From: Limnofasciculus baicalensis BBK-W-15
GTDB taxonomy: Bacteria; Cyanobacteriota; Cyanobacteriia; Cyanobacteriales; Coleofasciculaceae
NCBI RefSeq assembly: GCF_024178385.1
Contig: NZ_JAMZMM010000009.1
Coordinates: 1 to 42,618, forward strand
DNA: 42,618 bases
Reading direction: 5' to 3'
Part shown: positions 7,867 to 30,430 of the stretch, in pieces
Layout of the letters: the number at the start of each line of letters is the position of its first letter
How positions within the stretch are numbered: position 1 is the first letter of the stretch
Translations under genes and position numbers: made by a program
The notes under the pieces: model-generated
Seen by the model: the letters and a program-made list of their open reading frames with translations, nothing else
What the model was told of the DNA's origin: nothing
Database searches by the model: none

Positions 7867-7970
7867 CAGACAACAGAAAGTATTAATTAAGAGTAGCTCC
7901 CTTAAAATCAGCTTAATTATTATTAATTTACTTTGGCACTAAAAAGAGGTAAGCAGAGCTATTCCTAACC

Positions 7971-8075
7971 AACAACCAATAACCAATAACCAATAACCAA
8001 TAACCAACAACCAATAACCAATAACCAATAACCAATAACCAATAACCAATAACCAATAACCAATAATCAATAACT
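7971..8075. repeat. Heptamer array (AATAACC), 15 units
   Basis: Fifteen consecutive 7-base units from 7971 to 8075, mostly aataacc with two aacaacc variants and degenerate last units. This is a short tandemly repeated repetitive sequence typical of filamentous cyanobacteria. It runs up to the stop codon of the ABC ATPase gene and is probably length-variable between strains. Confidence 0.95.
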
Positions 8076-14477: not shown

Positions 14478-16043
14478 TTAATTATCTTTATTCTGATACT
14501 CCTTAACTCCATCCGCTTCCTCTTCCTCATTCACTTCTTCTTTGTCTTTCAAAGGCTTAACCACCCGCGCAATTGCATCTGTGACAAATGCTTTAATAAA
14601 CTCATCCCTACGATTAAGCTGAAACTGTCGCTGTACCACTTCCGTCATCCCCCCATCTCCCCAATCTTGATCGTGGCGAAAATATTCAATAAAACTTTTA
14701 CCAGCAATCCGAGTTAAATAAGCGGCTGTAACCCCTTGAATCGCTTTACCAACTAAATAAGTTGCCACATTTAATTGTAAGGCTGTAGAAATAAGTTCAA
14801 TCGCACCCTTAACAATCCCTAAACTGGCAAGAGTTTTGCCCAAAGATAGAGCAAGTTCCCTCCCTCTTTCCATATTTAGTTCACAACCATAAATCCTGCC
14901 AATTTCTACCACCATTTGGGCATTAACAGCAGCAGTTGCCAGTAAATCTATTACAGGTAAAGGCGTAACAGCAATTACCCCCGCGCCAATCCACTGAAAC
15001 CTTTCCACCACTTTCTCTGCCTGTCGTCGCCGCTGATTATCAATTAGGCGGCGGGCAGCCTCGCCCAAACGCTGAGATTGGAGTAAAATGTTATCAGCAA
15101 CCAAATCTTCTCCCTCAGCACGCAAAACGGCCGCAAGACGACGGATTAAAGGCATTACATCAGGTTCGAGATCCCCAACTTCTTCAAGAAGTCGGGAATC
15201 TGGATTAGCTGCGATCGCAACGACATCCATTGCCGCAATAAAACCCCGCACCCGTTGCCGCAATCTGGCTAAAATAATTTCTTTATCTTCATCATTATAG
15301 AGATCGCTTTTATTGAGGACAAGGATCGATCTCTTGCCAATTTCTGCTAATCTCCGTAATGGTTCATATTCCGATTTTCGGATATCATTATCTACGACAA
15401 ATAATAATAAATCTGCCTCTGTCGCTAACTGTCGGGCTAATTGCTCTCTTTCAGTACCCACTACCCCCACCTCTAAAATTCCCGGTGTATCAGTAATGAG
15501 AATCTGGCGATTCAATCCCTTAAGCTTTAAACTATAAGTTTCTCCGGCTGCAGTCGTCCCCATACTAGCACCCACTTTACCCACCATCCGCCCAATTAGT
15601 GCATTCACCAGAGAGGTTTTCCCAGCAGAACCTGTCCCGAATACTACCACCTGTAGTTCACCACGCGCTAAAATAGCCTCAATCTCTCGCGAACGACTCA
15701 AAAGTTCTTGTCGTGCTACTTCATCCTGAATCTGCTTGACTTGCTGACGTACAGCTTTCAGTGTTTCTGATGCCGCCTCCGCCTTGACTTGAGGAACTTT
15801 TGGGCTAAGGCGACGCTGAGTCGAACCCTTCTGAATCCGTCCGAACAATCCCGTATAATAAATAAAGGCAAAAATTAACACCCCCAGTAGGGCAATAATG
15901 AATAACAGGAGGAAATTAGCCAGGAGGGGAGCTGTAAAGGAAATTTGGATATATAGCCGATGGAGGGAATCAATCAGCCAAAGCATTAACCCCAGAATTA
16001 GGCTAAGACCAATAATAAGCGTTAATAGGCGAGGGAGGGGCAT
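14478..16043 (-). CDS. Membrane-associated Era-like GTPase with DUF697 domain
   Basis: A 521-residue protein using ATG 16043 (MPLPRLLTL); the frame extends to a TTG at 16088 but the ATG gives a better membrane start. Two membrane helices fill residues about 1-70. The G domain has G1 GTGSAGKTS (136-144), G3 DTPG (185-188) and G4 NKSD (244-247). The C-terminal part, with VAIAANPDSR and then a hydrophobic helical region ending near TRIAGKSFIEYF, fits the DUF697 domain of YcjF/GTPase fusion proteins common in cyanobacteria. The likely role is in membrane or envelope processes; the exact function is unknown. Confidence 0.88.
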   Translation of the reverse strand: MPLPRLLTLIIGLSLILGLMLWLIDSLHRLYIQISFTAPLLANFLLLFIIALLGVLIFAFIYYTGLFGRIQKGSTQRRLSPKVPQVKAEAASETLKAVRQQVKQIQDEVARQELLSRSREIEAILARGELQVVVFGTGSAGKTSLVNALIGRMVGKVGASMGTTAAGETYSLKLKGLNRQILITDTPGILEVGVVGTEREQLARQLATEADLLLFVVDNDIRKSEYEPLRRLAEIGKRSILVLNKSDLYNDEDKEIILARLRQRVRGFIAAMDVVAIAANPDSRLLEEVGDLEPDVMPLIRRLAAVLRAEGEDLVADNILLQSQRLGEAARRLIDNQRRRQAEKVVERFQWIGAGVIAVTPLPVIDLLATAAVNAQMVVEIGRIYGCELNMERGRELALSLGKTLASLGIVKGAIELISTALQLNVATYLVGKAIQGVTAAYLTRIAGKSFIEYFRHDQDWGDGGMTEVVQRQFQLNRRDEFIKAFVTDAIARVVKPLKDKEEVNEEEEADGVKEYQNKDN

Positions 16044-16138
16044 GATTCCATCTTGTTTCCACAAACTGGGGTTGACAACTGAGTGCAAGAACTTGTAGAT
16101 TATTATACAAAATTATCCTAAATGTAGATGGTTTTAGG

Positions 16139-23897: not shown

Positions 23898-23965
23898 TGT
23901 TACAGAGTATTGAGCTGGAAATTGCGATCGAGGAATTATATCGGGGTGTAAGTTTAGGGCGATAA
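23897..23965 (+). repeat. Orphan copy of the Uma2 gene 3' tail (69 bp)
   Basis: These bases match 25577-25645, the last 23 codons of the intact Uma2 gene (MLQSIELEIAIAELYRGVSL), with a few changes. Further copies lie at 26545-26609 and 27306-27347. The copies sit between otherwise unrelated TA genes. Confidence 0.9.
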
Positions 23966-24065
23966 TCTGACGGGTGCTTCCTATAGGATGGAATTACGAT
24001 CCAGTTATTTTGAGAATCCTGAAAAAATATGCTAATCTTAAAATTAAAAGTAGAGGAAAGTTCTC

Positions 24066-24305
24066 ATGGCTGAAAATACAGTGAAAGTAGACATCTCATT
24101 TCAATCACTCCTGGAAGCTATTTCGTCACTAGGAATTGCTGAAAGATACAAGATTTGGGAATTTTTGGAAGCTGAATTATTCCCGAATGAGGACGATTCT
24201 CCAGAAGACATTGCCGAAATTCAAGCAGCCCGTGCTGACTACAACGCTGGAGACTACACAACTTTCGATCGATATATGGCACAAAGGGCAAATAAATCGA
24301 CATGA
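24066..24305 (+). CDS. Antitoxin of RelE-type pair
   Basis: A 79-residue acidic protein (MAENTVKVDISFQSLLEAIS...IAEIQAARADYNAGDYTTFD). The C-terminal region with AARADYNAGDY is typical of antitoxins that wrap RelE/ParE toxins. It overlaps the toxin start by four bases (ATGA). A degenerate second copy of its 5' end lies at 27437-27502. It appears intact and gives the pair its likely autoregulation. Confidence 0.78.
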   Translation: MAENTVKVDISFQSLLEAISSLGIAERYKIWEFLEAELFPNEDDSPEDIAEIQAARADYNAGDYTTFDRYMAQRANKST

Positions 24306-27273: not shown

Positions 27274-27592
27274 TTATTGAAACTGCGATCGCTGTTGCAG
27301 TTGTGGCGATCGCAGAATTATATCGGGGTGTGAGTTTGGAGCGATAACGGTTTGCGGTGCTGGAACGCGATATAACTATTTTGAAAGTTTTGAAGAAATA
27401 TGCTAAATATAAAATTAAAAGTGAAGGAAAGTTTTGATGACTGAGAATGCCGTGAAAGTAGATATCTCATTTCAATCACTGGAAGCTATTTCGTCAGATT
27501 GACTTAAGTGCGATCGATCGGTTTCTGAGGTAGTGTAGCAATCTACCAAATTTTACTTTTAGTTTTTTCATATCGAAGCATAGGAAGATTTT
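27274..27592. other. Intergenic stretch of repeat remnants
   Basis: It contains a 42-bp piece of the Uma2 tail (27306-27347) and then a degenerate copy of the segment upstream of the RelE antitoxin at 24066 (27371-27436). The order matches 23897-24135, so this is an older duplicate of that block. No complete gene. Confidence 0.75.
27437..27502 (+). pseudogene. Degenerate copy of the RelE antitoxin 5' end
   Basis: ATG 27437 reads MTENAVKVDISFQSLEAISSD and stops. It matches the first residues of the antitoxin at 24066 (MAENTVKVDISFQSLLEAIS) with one codon lost and a premature end. The upstream leader is also copied. Non-functional remnant. Confidence 0.85.
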
Positions 27593-30430
27593 ATGGCTGG
27601 TACAACTGTATGGGATCAATTGTCAAACGAGATGTCAAAAAGTGACGATAGTAAGTTTAAGGACAAAGTAATTTCGCTTTTACGAATATTAGATCCTTCT
27701 TTTGAAGAATGTTCAGATATTCCAGGAGCGGATTTTGTTGTAAGGTCTAGTGAAGATAAGCTTGACTGGGTAGTACAGTGTCAGGCTTTTGATGTTGAGT
27801 TCGATTTGGATGAGAATCACGCTTTACAAATTGTTTCTACAACAGAAGCATTTATAAGTGAAGGATTTAGATGCGATAGATATTGGGTACTGCATAATCA
27901 TCAGAATGGGAGGCGTGGGCGAGGGAAATTCAGTCATTTTTTAGGTAAAATTGAAGAATATAAAGCAAGCTTAGAAGCCTCTGGCAATATCAATAATTTT
28001 CGATTATTACAACGTCAAGAGTTTCTTGACAAAGCAGAAAATGAATTTAGAAGTACATTAACCTGTTTACTTCAAGAATATTCACGTCGATACAGACTAG
28101 ACATAGAAAACAAGCTTGAGTTTGGAAAATACTATGTTCCTAACGTACCTGCTGAGGAATCTGAGATTAGCTTTAGAGAGCATGAGCCTATCCCTAATGT
28201 CAAACAAGTACCAAGTAATGGAAATCAGAGTGTTTCCGAACTTGTTATTTCTGAGAGAAAAGATATTATCTGGACTTTGATGCACGGAGAAGCTGGTGCA
28301 GGTAAAACAACTACAGCTCTCTATACTGCAACCACAGCAAATAAAATAGTATTTTTCATCAACTGTGATATCTTGAATTTCTATTCATTACGTTCAGGGA
28401 CTAACTTCTTATTAGAGCATATTCTCAGAATGTTAAATATTTTAGAAGAATTTGAAGATGAAACGGATAGAGAGTTATTGTACTCGCTCTCAGGTGCAAC
28501 CTTGGGAAAAACGATTGAACACTCAGAGAAACATATCCTTGTGTTCGATGGTTTAGATGAAAATAGATTTTATTCAGATCCCAGTAGTGAAGGGATCAAG
28601 CGTTTAAGTGATAGGCTATCAGATATTCACTGCCCAATTATTTTAGTGACTAGGACATCGCATTTTGAAGAAAGTTTATTCAGCGAATTAGTGACTGTGA
28701 ATAATAGCAGAGGGGGAGCTAAAGCTCGTAGGAAAGCAAGAGCTTTAAAACTAGATATCTGGTCGAGCGATCATATTTTGCAGTTAATTGATAAAATTAT
28801 GGAGGACTACAAAAAAAATCTCCCAGATAGTGAAAATTCTCCAAGAATTTTAGATGGTGAAAGTTTCTTAAAAATTCAAAAATTTAGATGTCTTTTTTTA
28901 GATGAATCATACAGAGATTTTTACGGTGAGTTACCTCTCAACCCACTTTTTTTACAATTTATACTGTCTGATGTCGTTGAACGGGATATTCAGCCAGTAA
29001 ACAGACCAACTTTGATATATCAGTGGGTTCGACGAAAAATATATCGAGACATTGAAAAAGATAATCGTCCTTTTATTATTGAAAAAAAATCTGCAAAGGA
29101 TTTAACGTCGTCAGAGCGTAGTGAGCGAAATGTTCAAGTAGACAAAATTTTATATATTATGGAACTTGTATCAAAAGATATGACTTTGGGTCGTGAAGAT
29201 GGTACATTCGTCCTAAAAGATTTGACAGACTCTCAAAAAGTAGAAGAGTTTGCAGCAAAAATTTTTCAGGTAGATAGAGTAAGAATTATAGATGTACTTT
29301 TGAATTCTGTTCTGACATCTCATGCAACATTGACTCGTGAGAAATATCGTTCGACGAAGCAGAAAATCACATTTATATTCAAAATCTTACAGGAGTATTT
29401 TCTAGCATTATTTTTGGTTAGAAATAATGAAGATTTCTCGCGATATCCTAAAAGTATAATATCTTTTTGTGAAGAAATCATAAAAACCGATCCTGAAGAA
29501 GAATTATGGATGTATCTTAGAGAAAACTTTGATTTTTCGCAAGGAAATACACTTATGATTGATAATCAGCGATATGGTTTGAATCCCTTATTTGGGTGCA
29601 AAAACCCAGATCGGAAGGGCGATATTATTTTTGTTCATGGCTTGATGGGTCATGCTACGAAGACTTGGCATCCTAGCGAAAAGGACGATCCAGATTCATG
29701 TTGGTTAGGATGGCTTGCCAAAGATCAAAAGCTATCAGAACTAGGAATTTGGACATATGGATATGAAGCAGAGCCTTCCGCTTGGAAAGGTAAAGGAATA
29801 CCTCTGTTCGATCAATCAAGTCCTCTATTAGATTACTTGGATAGCCAAGAGTTAGGAGACAAACCTATTATTTTTATTACTCACAGTTTAGGCGGTCTCT
29901 TAGTTAAAAAGATGCTGGAATCTGCTGACAAGTATCCCCAATCTCAAAAATTTATTCACCAAACAAAAGGGATTGTGTTCTTGGCAACTCCACATCAGGG
30001 TGCACATCTAGCTGAGTTAATCAAAAATATTGGTACTTTGTTCGCACGTCTTGAACCCATCGTTAACGATCTTAAAGCTAATGAGCATAATCTACGATCA
30101 CTTAATGAAACATACAGGCAAAAATGCCGTAGTTGGTGTATTGAAACTAAGGTATATTTTGAAACAGAAGCAGTGTTCGGAGTGAAAGTAGTTGAAGAAA
30201 TGAGTGCAGATCCAGGACTTTTAGACGTAAAACCATTTGCAGTTCAGGGAGCCAATCACATTTCTATTGCCAAGCCTGAGTCTGAAAATTCGCAAGTATA
30301 CATAGGAGTTAGAAAGTTTATAAAGGACTCCTTGAATATACCTGCAAAAATTCCTTTGAATTTGCCTGATAAAGTTACCAAAATTATTGAGGTTGATGAC
30401 GTTTGCCAGAACGAATTCAAGCGGCTCTGA
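27593..30430 (+). CDS. Nuclease-like / STAND (NACHT-type) NTPase / alpha-beta hydrolase fusion
   Basis: A 945-residue single-gene fusion. Residues about 20-150 resemble a restriction-endonuclease-like (Mrr-type) fold: GADFVV (45-50) and WVVQCQAF (59-66), where the usual Q-C-K is Q-C-Q, so the catalytic Lys may be missing. Residues about 220-610 form a P-loop NTPase: Walker A HGEAGAGKTT (231-240), Walker B HILVFDGLDE (314-323) and a sensor-like ILVTRTS (350-356). Residues 670-910 are an alpha/beta hydrolase: FVHGLMGHATKTW, nucleophile elbow THSLGG (S765), VFLATPHQGAH and His in QGANHISIAKPE (H889). The gene is AT-rich relative to neighbours. Probably a defence protein that oligomerises on sensing phage and activates the lipase/esterase-like domain. 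Ribosome-binding site aggaag. Confidence 0.85.
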   Translation: MAGTTVWDQLSNEMSKSDDSKFKDKVISLLRILDPSFEECSDIPGADFVVRSSEDKLDWVVQCQAFDVEFDLDENHALQIVSTTEAFISEGFRCDRYWVLHNHQNGRRGRGKFSHFLGKIEEYKASLEASGNINNFRLLQRQEFLDKAENEFRSTLTCLLQEYSRRYRLDIENKLEFGKYYVPNVPAEESEISFREHEPIPNVKQVPSNGNQSVSELVISERKDIIWTLMHGEAGAGKTTTALYTATTANKIVFFINCDILNFYSLRSGTNFLLEHILRMLNILEEFEDETDRELLYSLSGATLGKTIEHSEKHILVFDGLDENRFYSDPSSEGIKRLSDRLSDIHCPIILVTRTSHFEESLFSELVTVNNSRGGAKARRKARALKLDIWSSDHILQLIDKIMEDYKKNLPDSENSPRILDGESFLKIQKFRCLFLDESYRDFYGELPLNPLFLQFILSDVVERDIQPVNRPTLIYQWVRRKIYRDIEKDNRPFIIEKKSAKDLTSSERSERNVQVDKILYIMELVSKDMTLGREDGTFVLKDLTDSQKVEEFAAKIFQVDRVRIIDVLLNSVLTSHATLTREKYRSTKQKITFIFKILQEYFLALFLVRNNEDFSRYPKSIISFCEEIIKTDPEEELWMYLRENFDFSQGNTLMIDNQRYGLNPLFGCKNPDRKGDIIFVHGLMGHATKTWHPSEKDDPDSCWLGWLAKDQKLSELGIWTYGYEAEPSAWKGKGIPLFDQSSPLLDYLDSQELGDKPIIFITHSLGGLLVKKMLESADKYPQSQKFIHQTKGIVFLATPHQGAHLAELIKNIGTLFARLEPIVNDLKANEHNLRSLNETYRQKCRSWCIETKVYFETEAVFGVKVVEEMSADPGLLDVKPFAVQGANHISIAKPESENSQVYIGVRKFIKDSLNIPAKIPLNLPDKVTKIIEVDDVCQNEFKRL

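Follow-up and report, generated by a model that had tools for sequence, protein, structure and literature searches.

A chimeric cyanobacterial gene joins an Mrr-like domain, a NACHT-type STAND NTPase and a C-terminal alpha/beta hydrolase

A single gene of the cyanobacterium Limnofasciculus baicalensis BBK-W-15 joins, in one reading frame, an Mrr-like domain, a NACHT-type STAND NTPase and an alpha/beta hydrolase. It lies in the window, by which we mean the whole stretch of 42,618 nucleotides that was analysed, and is internal to its contig in a draft genome of 6.6 Mb in 762 contigs. The domain anatomy of the gene is well supported, and comparison with its relatives gives equally good support to the view that it is a chimera of two parts with different histories. 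The product probably represents a rare variety of the known cell-suicide or anti-virus proteins. The explanation that we prefer, and to which we would give an even chance, is a NACHT-type STAND (NLR-like) suicide protein of reversed polarity, with a sensor-like domain first, the STAND part in the middle and the hydrolase as effector at the C-terminus. Such a protein would presumably act against phages.

The gene holds 945 open codons from an ATG with a Shine-Dalgarno AGGA 7 nt 5' of it, and its features are collected in Table 1. Sequence comparison confirms that the open frame and its motifs are far beyond chance, as about 641 residues of the protein align at 39-44% identity with those of two other species. 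The sequence-only reading had placed Walker A and Walker B motifs in the centre of the protein, and both are present there. G232, G235, G237, K238 and T239 of Walker A are invariant in the three aligned proteins, a STAND-type Arg follows after the next strand (TRTSHF, residues 353-358), and the key STAND residues are invariant in the aligned relatives. The Pfam matches of the NTPase region are all under the curated cut-offs (AAA_22 2.6e-4, NPHP3_N 0.007, NACHT 0.036), and the two intact relatives match NACHT at 1.5e-4 and 2.8e-4. The hydrolase matches DUF676 over its Pfam cut-off. Its lipase-type elbow with S765 and the histidine H889, both proposed earlier, were found as described, and the aligned homologues point to E857 as the acid; the catalytic triad is kept in nearly all of the homologous domains. 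A full-length structure prediction was set aside, its pLDDT of 40 being too poor to read domain contacts, and a sequence search of solved structures with the protein gave nothing useful.

Table 1. Features of the chimeric gene, in positions of the window
Feature	Residues	Positions	Strand	Conservation or basis
Chimeric gene (945 aa): Mrr-like domain, NACHT-type STAND NTPase, alpha/beta hydrolase	1-945	27593..30430	+	
N-terminal Mrr/PD-(D/E)XK-like domain, probably catalytically dead	1-215	27593..28237	+	
Q62-C63-Q64, where (E/Q)xK is expected	62-64	27776..27784	+	KCH, QCQ and QCH in three relatives
NACHT-type STAND NTPase and helical C-terminal part	216-648	28238..29536	+	
Walker A GEAGAGKT	232-239	28286..28309	+	alignment with relatives
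Walker B ILVFDGLDE	315-323	28535..28561	+	alignment with relatives
Internal Shine-Dalgarno AAGGA, 9 nt 5' of the M655 ATG		29541..29545	+	
M655 ATG, probable old hydrolase start codon	655	29555..29557	+	
Alpha/beta hydrolase, DUF676/PGAP1-like, SesB/SERAC1-like kind	655-945	29555..30427	+	
Nucleophile in THSLGG elbow	S765	29885..29887	+	S in 48 of 50 homologous domains
Probable triad acid (YFETEA)	E857	30161..30163	+	E in 50 of 50 homologous domains
Triad histidine	H889	30257..30259	+	H in 49 of 50 homologous domains

The N-terminal domain is nuclease-like and, judged from its residues, probably catalytically inactive. The earlier description of an Mrr-like N-terminus that reads QCQ holds for the motif and, in part, for the fold. 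In an hhalign comparison with an alignment of Mrr_cat proteins, taken from genomes of the same family, the domain scores 31.7 (probability 39%, P 3e-4), against 22.4 for the best of 60 block-shuffled decoys and 16.9 for the reversed sequence, and the QCQ column is placed on the QxK motif. The score depends on the target, being 21.3 against one Mrr subgroup alone, and Pfam gives no match to the domain. The AlphaFold model of the domain, of moderate confidence (pLDDT 61), has the REase-like order H-H-E-E-E-H-E-H-E-H, and Foldseek with this model returns weak matches, all with E > 1e-3, that include NucS/EndoMS, BstEII, Cap4 and Avs4. Restriction enzymes of the BglII type use Gln in place of Lys, so that one such exchange is no proof of loss. 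Across the four proteins of the family the catalytic positions read D-QCQ (window), D-KCH, H-QCQ and D-QCH; the D...(E/Q)xK of an Mrr-type PD-(D/E)XK nuclease is conserved in none of these sets, which argues for loss of the nuclease and agrees with the earlier suggestion of an inactive part. The conserved residues of the domain sit elsewhere, e.g. C63, C94 and a Y-x-V-x-H-N strand, as would fit a domain that is retained for a different function. One can still imagine the classical polarity, with an N-domain that cuts DNA as the effector and a hydrolase that acts as sensor or modulator; D47 and Q62 are retained in the window protein, and bNACHT25 and bNACHT32 have N-terminal PD-(D/E)XK effectors (PMC12169576). 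The missing catalytic set, against a hydrolase triad that is conserved, makes this very unlikely.

The first two parts of the protein form a small family of their own. Residues 1-641 match just three other proteins, in Desmonostoc muscorum FACHB-395 (731 aa), in Tychonema sp. BBK16 (799 aa) and in a third genome, G469. This last copy is broken by one in-frame stop at position 143 and is open for the remainder (L029, G469:C20), and may represent a recent pseudogene or a case of readthrough. The hydrolase is found in none of the three relatives, which keep Walker A, Walker B and the N-domain and end in other tails of about 90-150 residues. Two short peptide patterns, searched in 84,980 species genomes, recovered Desmonostoc and Tychonema only, and when 391 genomes of the order and 390 of the class were searched by profile, no core homologue beyond these relatives appeared. 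The core is thus seen in 4 genomes, against about 1100 draws of genomes at the levels of phylum, order and class, with some genomes drawn repeatedly. It has no match in plasmid and phage collections or in IMG/VR, and is absent from the one same-genus genome searched (G440). The GC content is 34.3% in the STAND part, 38.9% in the hydrolase and 41.3% in the window; the core of Desmonostoc stands at 30.5% against 41.6% in its surroundings, and that of Tychonema at 34.2% against 45.0%. AT-rich in three hosts and absent from one same-genus genome, the core is typical of mobile accessory genes. The 'empty site' comparison with G440 gave no nameable clean insertion boundary, and the neighbours are scattered over several contigs of that genome.

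In the other genomes, the neighbours of the core are partly housekeeping genes, with no clear defence islands, and support from a 'defence island' is therefore weak for the core. SERAC1/PGAP1-type hydrolases have lipid-remodelling roles in eukaryotes. Together, these points would suit a signalling or metabolic esterase under NTPase control, unrelated to phage or cell death and used, for example, in lipid remodelling during stress. This is highly improbable in view of the sporadic spread of the core, its AT-rich insert, and the ties of the hydrolase to STAND and ABC-3C systems.

In the window itself, the gene was earlier placed between toxin-antitoxin (TA) debris and an HNH module, and it does lie there, with TA-type and Uma2 cassettes upstream and a CopG-like/HNH pair downstream. 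Such neighbours are compatible with an accessory region and prove nothing. The upstream region is a mosaic of truncated cassettes. Between 23900 and 27480 these appear as recombining cassettes, in which repeats of 42-115 nt hold the Uma2 3' end at 23900, 25580, 26544 and 27306, and G440 has the same repeat blocks in shuffled form on several of its contigs. At 27368-27480, just ahead of the STAND gene, the repeat (81% to 23997-24109) contains a truncated antitoxin-like start. Elsewhere in the window, 14478-16088 encodes a GTPase with DUF697 (MMR_HSR1/Dynamin_N-like), whose PADLOC match to LeoA (2e-21) probably reflects the general similarity of dynamin-like GTPases, and the heptamer TAACCAA is repeated in tandem, in 15.6 copies, at 7966-8074.

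The hydrolase was found in 48 of the 391 genomes of the order. The window's own genome has two further copies, 45-57% identical to that of the window, and the nearest hydrolase of all is a free-standing one of this genome (L002, 57% identical). The branch of the window hydrolase is fairly long (0.58), and its sequence departs from the consensus at places, e.g. at M870, where most have D. Among 50 distinct domains, a sample of the 90 hydrolase places found in the search of the order, 29 are N-terminal in a longer protein and 20 stand alone; the window's is the single C-terminal one, which bears out the earlier impression of an unusual domain order. The N-terminal domains have up to about 40 residues ahead of them, and that of the window has 666. 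Partners of the N-terminal hydrolase, in the proteins scanned, are NB-ARC-TPR, NACHT-like, AAA_35 and trypsin-NB-ARC modules, and further FGE-sulfatase, DUF4062 and metallophosphatase-GAF. At L062:3715-5373 the hydrolase stands ahead of an FGE-sulfatase (formylglycine-generating enzyme) domain, beside a second stand-alone hydrolase copy and an NB-ARC-like gene.

The stand-alone hydrolase genes are, in 13 of the 18 cases listed, directly followed by a STAND/P-loop NTPase gene on the same strand (ten assigned by a visible P-loop and three by Pfam, the STAND profiles being NB-ARC, NACHT and nSTAND3), and in one of 18 by a DO-GTPase1-like gene. From these genes and from the N-terminal fusions, the cyanobacterial copies thus act as effectors coupled to STAND NTPases, in a fixed order that is reversed in the window gene. 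The proposal that the hydrolase is the effector has accordingly gained ground: it is an effector-type module by its association with STAND and ABC-3C systems, and its homologues, far from being confined to housekeeping contexts, sit with STAND NTPases, GTPases and ABC-3C/Lamassu components.

The two parts meet at a joint that can still be read. The core ends near YLRENF (648), and M655 follows six residues on. Two of the 12 in-frame ATGs have a Shine-Dalgarno at 4-10 nt, namely M1 and M655, and the stand-alone hydrolases begin at a site that matches M655 (TDSNSLIKISGCDN... in L002). Neither a frameshift nor a stop is seen on either side of the joint. The absence of the hydrolase from all three relatives, with the start codon and Shine-Dalgarno kept at the joint, points to a lineage-specific fusion. 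The simplest account would be an in-frame fusion between a horizontally moving core gene and a resident type of effector gene, whose start signal was kept. The fusion of STAND NTPase and hydrolase described from the letters therefore stands as far as the domains share one frame, and not as an old trait of the core family; a hydrolase inherited with the core was dropped for its absence from the relatives. A match of L002 to STAND residues 573-660 was discarded as spurious, as it runs through three stops at low identity until the hydrolase begins. An assembly error at the joint is unlikely. The joint has 13 kb of the contig on one side and 29.5 kb on the other, the host genome holds a single copy of the core, and its two other hydrolase copies are as divergent from the window's as given above.

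The start signal at the joint means that the gene may yield two products. The 945-aa fusion would then be a STAND regulator, and a free hydrolase of 291 aa from M655 would supply the effector subunits that join its assembly. M655 is the sole internal ATG with a Shine-Dalgarno at that spacing, it sits where the stand-alone hydrolases of the family begin, and in these genomes a stand-alone hydrolase usually has a STAND gene beside it; against this, the start may be a mere relic of the fusion. We regard two products as possible, with a small share of our confidence. It is more doubtful that both ideas combine, so that an inverted STAND receptor, with a dead nuclease as sensor and a C-terminal hydrolase, and the free hydrolase from M655 would form an immune complex of two parts, receptor and effector, both encoded in one frame. 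The fusion could also be a functionless accident, in which the core gene, deprived of its tail and stop codon, came to be read on into a hydrolase gene, to give an unselected product that will decay. The case is single and shared with no relative, the upstream region is the mosaic described above, and the relative in G469 is already broken by a stop codon. The accident is nevertheless improbable, given 945 open codons, catalytic and Walker residues that are all intact in spite of a hydrolase only 57% identical to its nearest kin, and a joint that is clean on both sides.

The tails of the relatives suggest how a C-terminal effector might fit the core. The tails of the two intact relatives have no Pfam match. 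That of Desmonostoc shares 35-41% identity with the tails of two TIR proteins and one CHAT (caspase-like) protein, and also with a segment that precedes AAA_35 STAND NTPases and another TIR protein; in AAA_35 NTPases of other genomes, this hydrolase takes that N-terminal place. By the 'effector-associated domain' principle, adaptors link effectors to NTPases (PMC8195603, PMC7159879), and the Desmonostoc tail follows the pattern of such an adaptor-like linker. With an adaptor-like segment or the hydrolase at the same position in two unrelated NTPase families, the C-terminal spot appears able to take an effector, which supports, without proving, its use as a place for effector attachment. The Tychonema tail is repeated at the C-terminus of a P-loop/HEAT-repeat protein of the window's own genome. 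In this protein (L139:1914-5024, G000:C678) a tail of about 100 residues is 44% identical to that of the Tychonema core, and a third copy lies on contig C732. This type of tail has the look of an adaptor that cyanobacterial NTPases share.

As a suicide protein of reversed polarity, the product would work through its three parts in turn. The N-domain, a decayed Mrr-type nuclease that would no longer cut, may have a role in sensing, binding or regulation. On a trigger, possibly a phage, the central NTPase would form oligomers, and the clustering would switch on the C-terminal hydrolase, derived from the fusion with a formerly free-standing effector gene. The target of the hydrolase would be an ester, most likely a membrane lipid of the cell itself, and the infected cell would die or stop growing. 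Clustering of the hydrolase by the NACHT NTPase, followed by cell arrest, is the most likely reading, and its chances are about level. The fusion would replace the recruitment of an effector in trans, through the adaptor-like tail seen in Desmonostoc, by a covalent effector. The inverted order, known from one gene of one draft genome, counts against this explanation.

If functional, the protein would be a STAND receptor whose effector works from the C-terminal end, and the rule of 'effector first, sensor last', by which bacterial NLR-like proteins are annotated, would become less strict. The joint represents a readable case of effector gene capture, with the start signal of the captured gene still present. 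From the relatives it seems that one and the same place can be taken either by a direct effector or by an adaptor tail, and the inert nuclease fold offers a test case for retired effectors that turn into sensors.

Several known systems share some of these parts. Avs4/AVAST has an N-terminal Mrr-like fold and a STAND NTPase as well. The window protein differs in size (945 aa against about 1540 residues in the 8dgf chains), shows neither a visible long TPR sensor nor a conserved nuclease site, and carries a C-terminal hydrolase; a PADLOC scan gave no match of an Avs profile to it.

In Lamassu, an alpha/beta hydrolase is found among the LmuA effectors (PMC10586767), and PADLOC matches the window hydrolase to LmuA (E = 1.3e-8) and to DUF626_VIII (E = 1e-22). 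Remote homologues on plasmids share 30-38% identity and the triad with it, and take the first place (LmuA position) in ABC-3C operons; 'middle component 5' and a DNA-repair-type ATPase come after the hydrolase gene there. The hydrolase is thus homologous to that of Lamassu/ABC-3C. It stands there in an operon with an SMC-like ATPase and a middle component, whereas in the window it is fused to a NACHT protein and followed by CopG-like and HNH open reading frames, so that the effector domain alone is shared.

Known bacterial STAND and NACHT proteins carry the effector N-terminally and the sensor C-terminally (PMC10907252, PMC12169576), and activation of a C-terminal effector is therefore not guaranteed. 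The window gene is at odds with this tripartite bNACHT/NLR rule, as its effector-type module is C-terminal and its N-domain lacks a conserved active site. It comes near to bNACHT25 and bNACHT32 of clade 6 (PMC12169576) in that one protein combines an N-domain of nuclease fold with a central NACHT-type NTPase and helical part behind it, the likeness to bNACHT25 being drawn from its description. The window protein differs in its nuclease site, which is not conserved, and in an additional C-terminal alpha/beta hydrolase, and its effector is probably at the other end.

The SesB-like NLRs of fungi, in which sesB-like lipases are N-terminal effectors (PMC4986451), and the cyanobacterial hydrolase-NB-ARC, hydrolase-NACHT and hydrolase-AAA_35 proteins combine the same kind of serine hydrolase with a STAND NTPase. 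The hydrolase is N-terminal in those fungal proteins and in 29 of 29 other cyanobacterial multidomain proteins, whereas in the window protein it is C-terminal.
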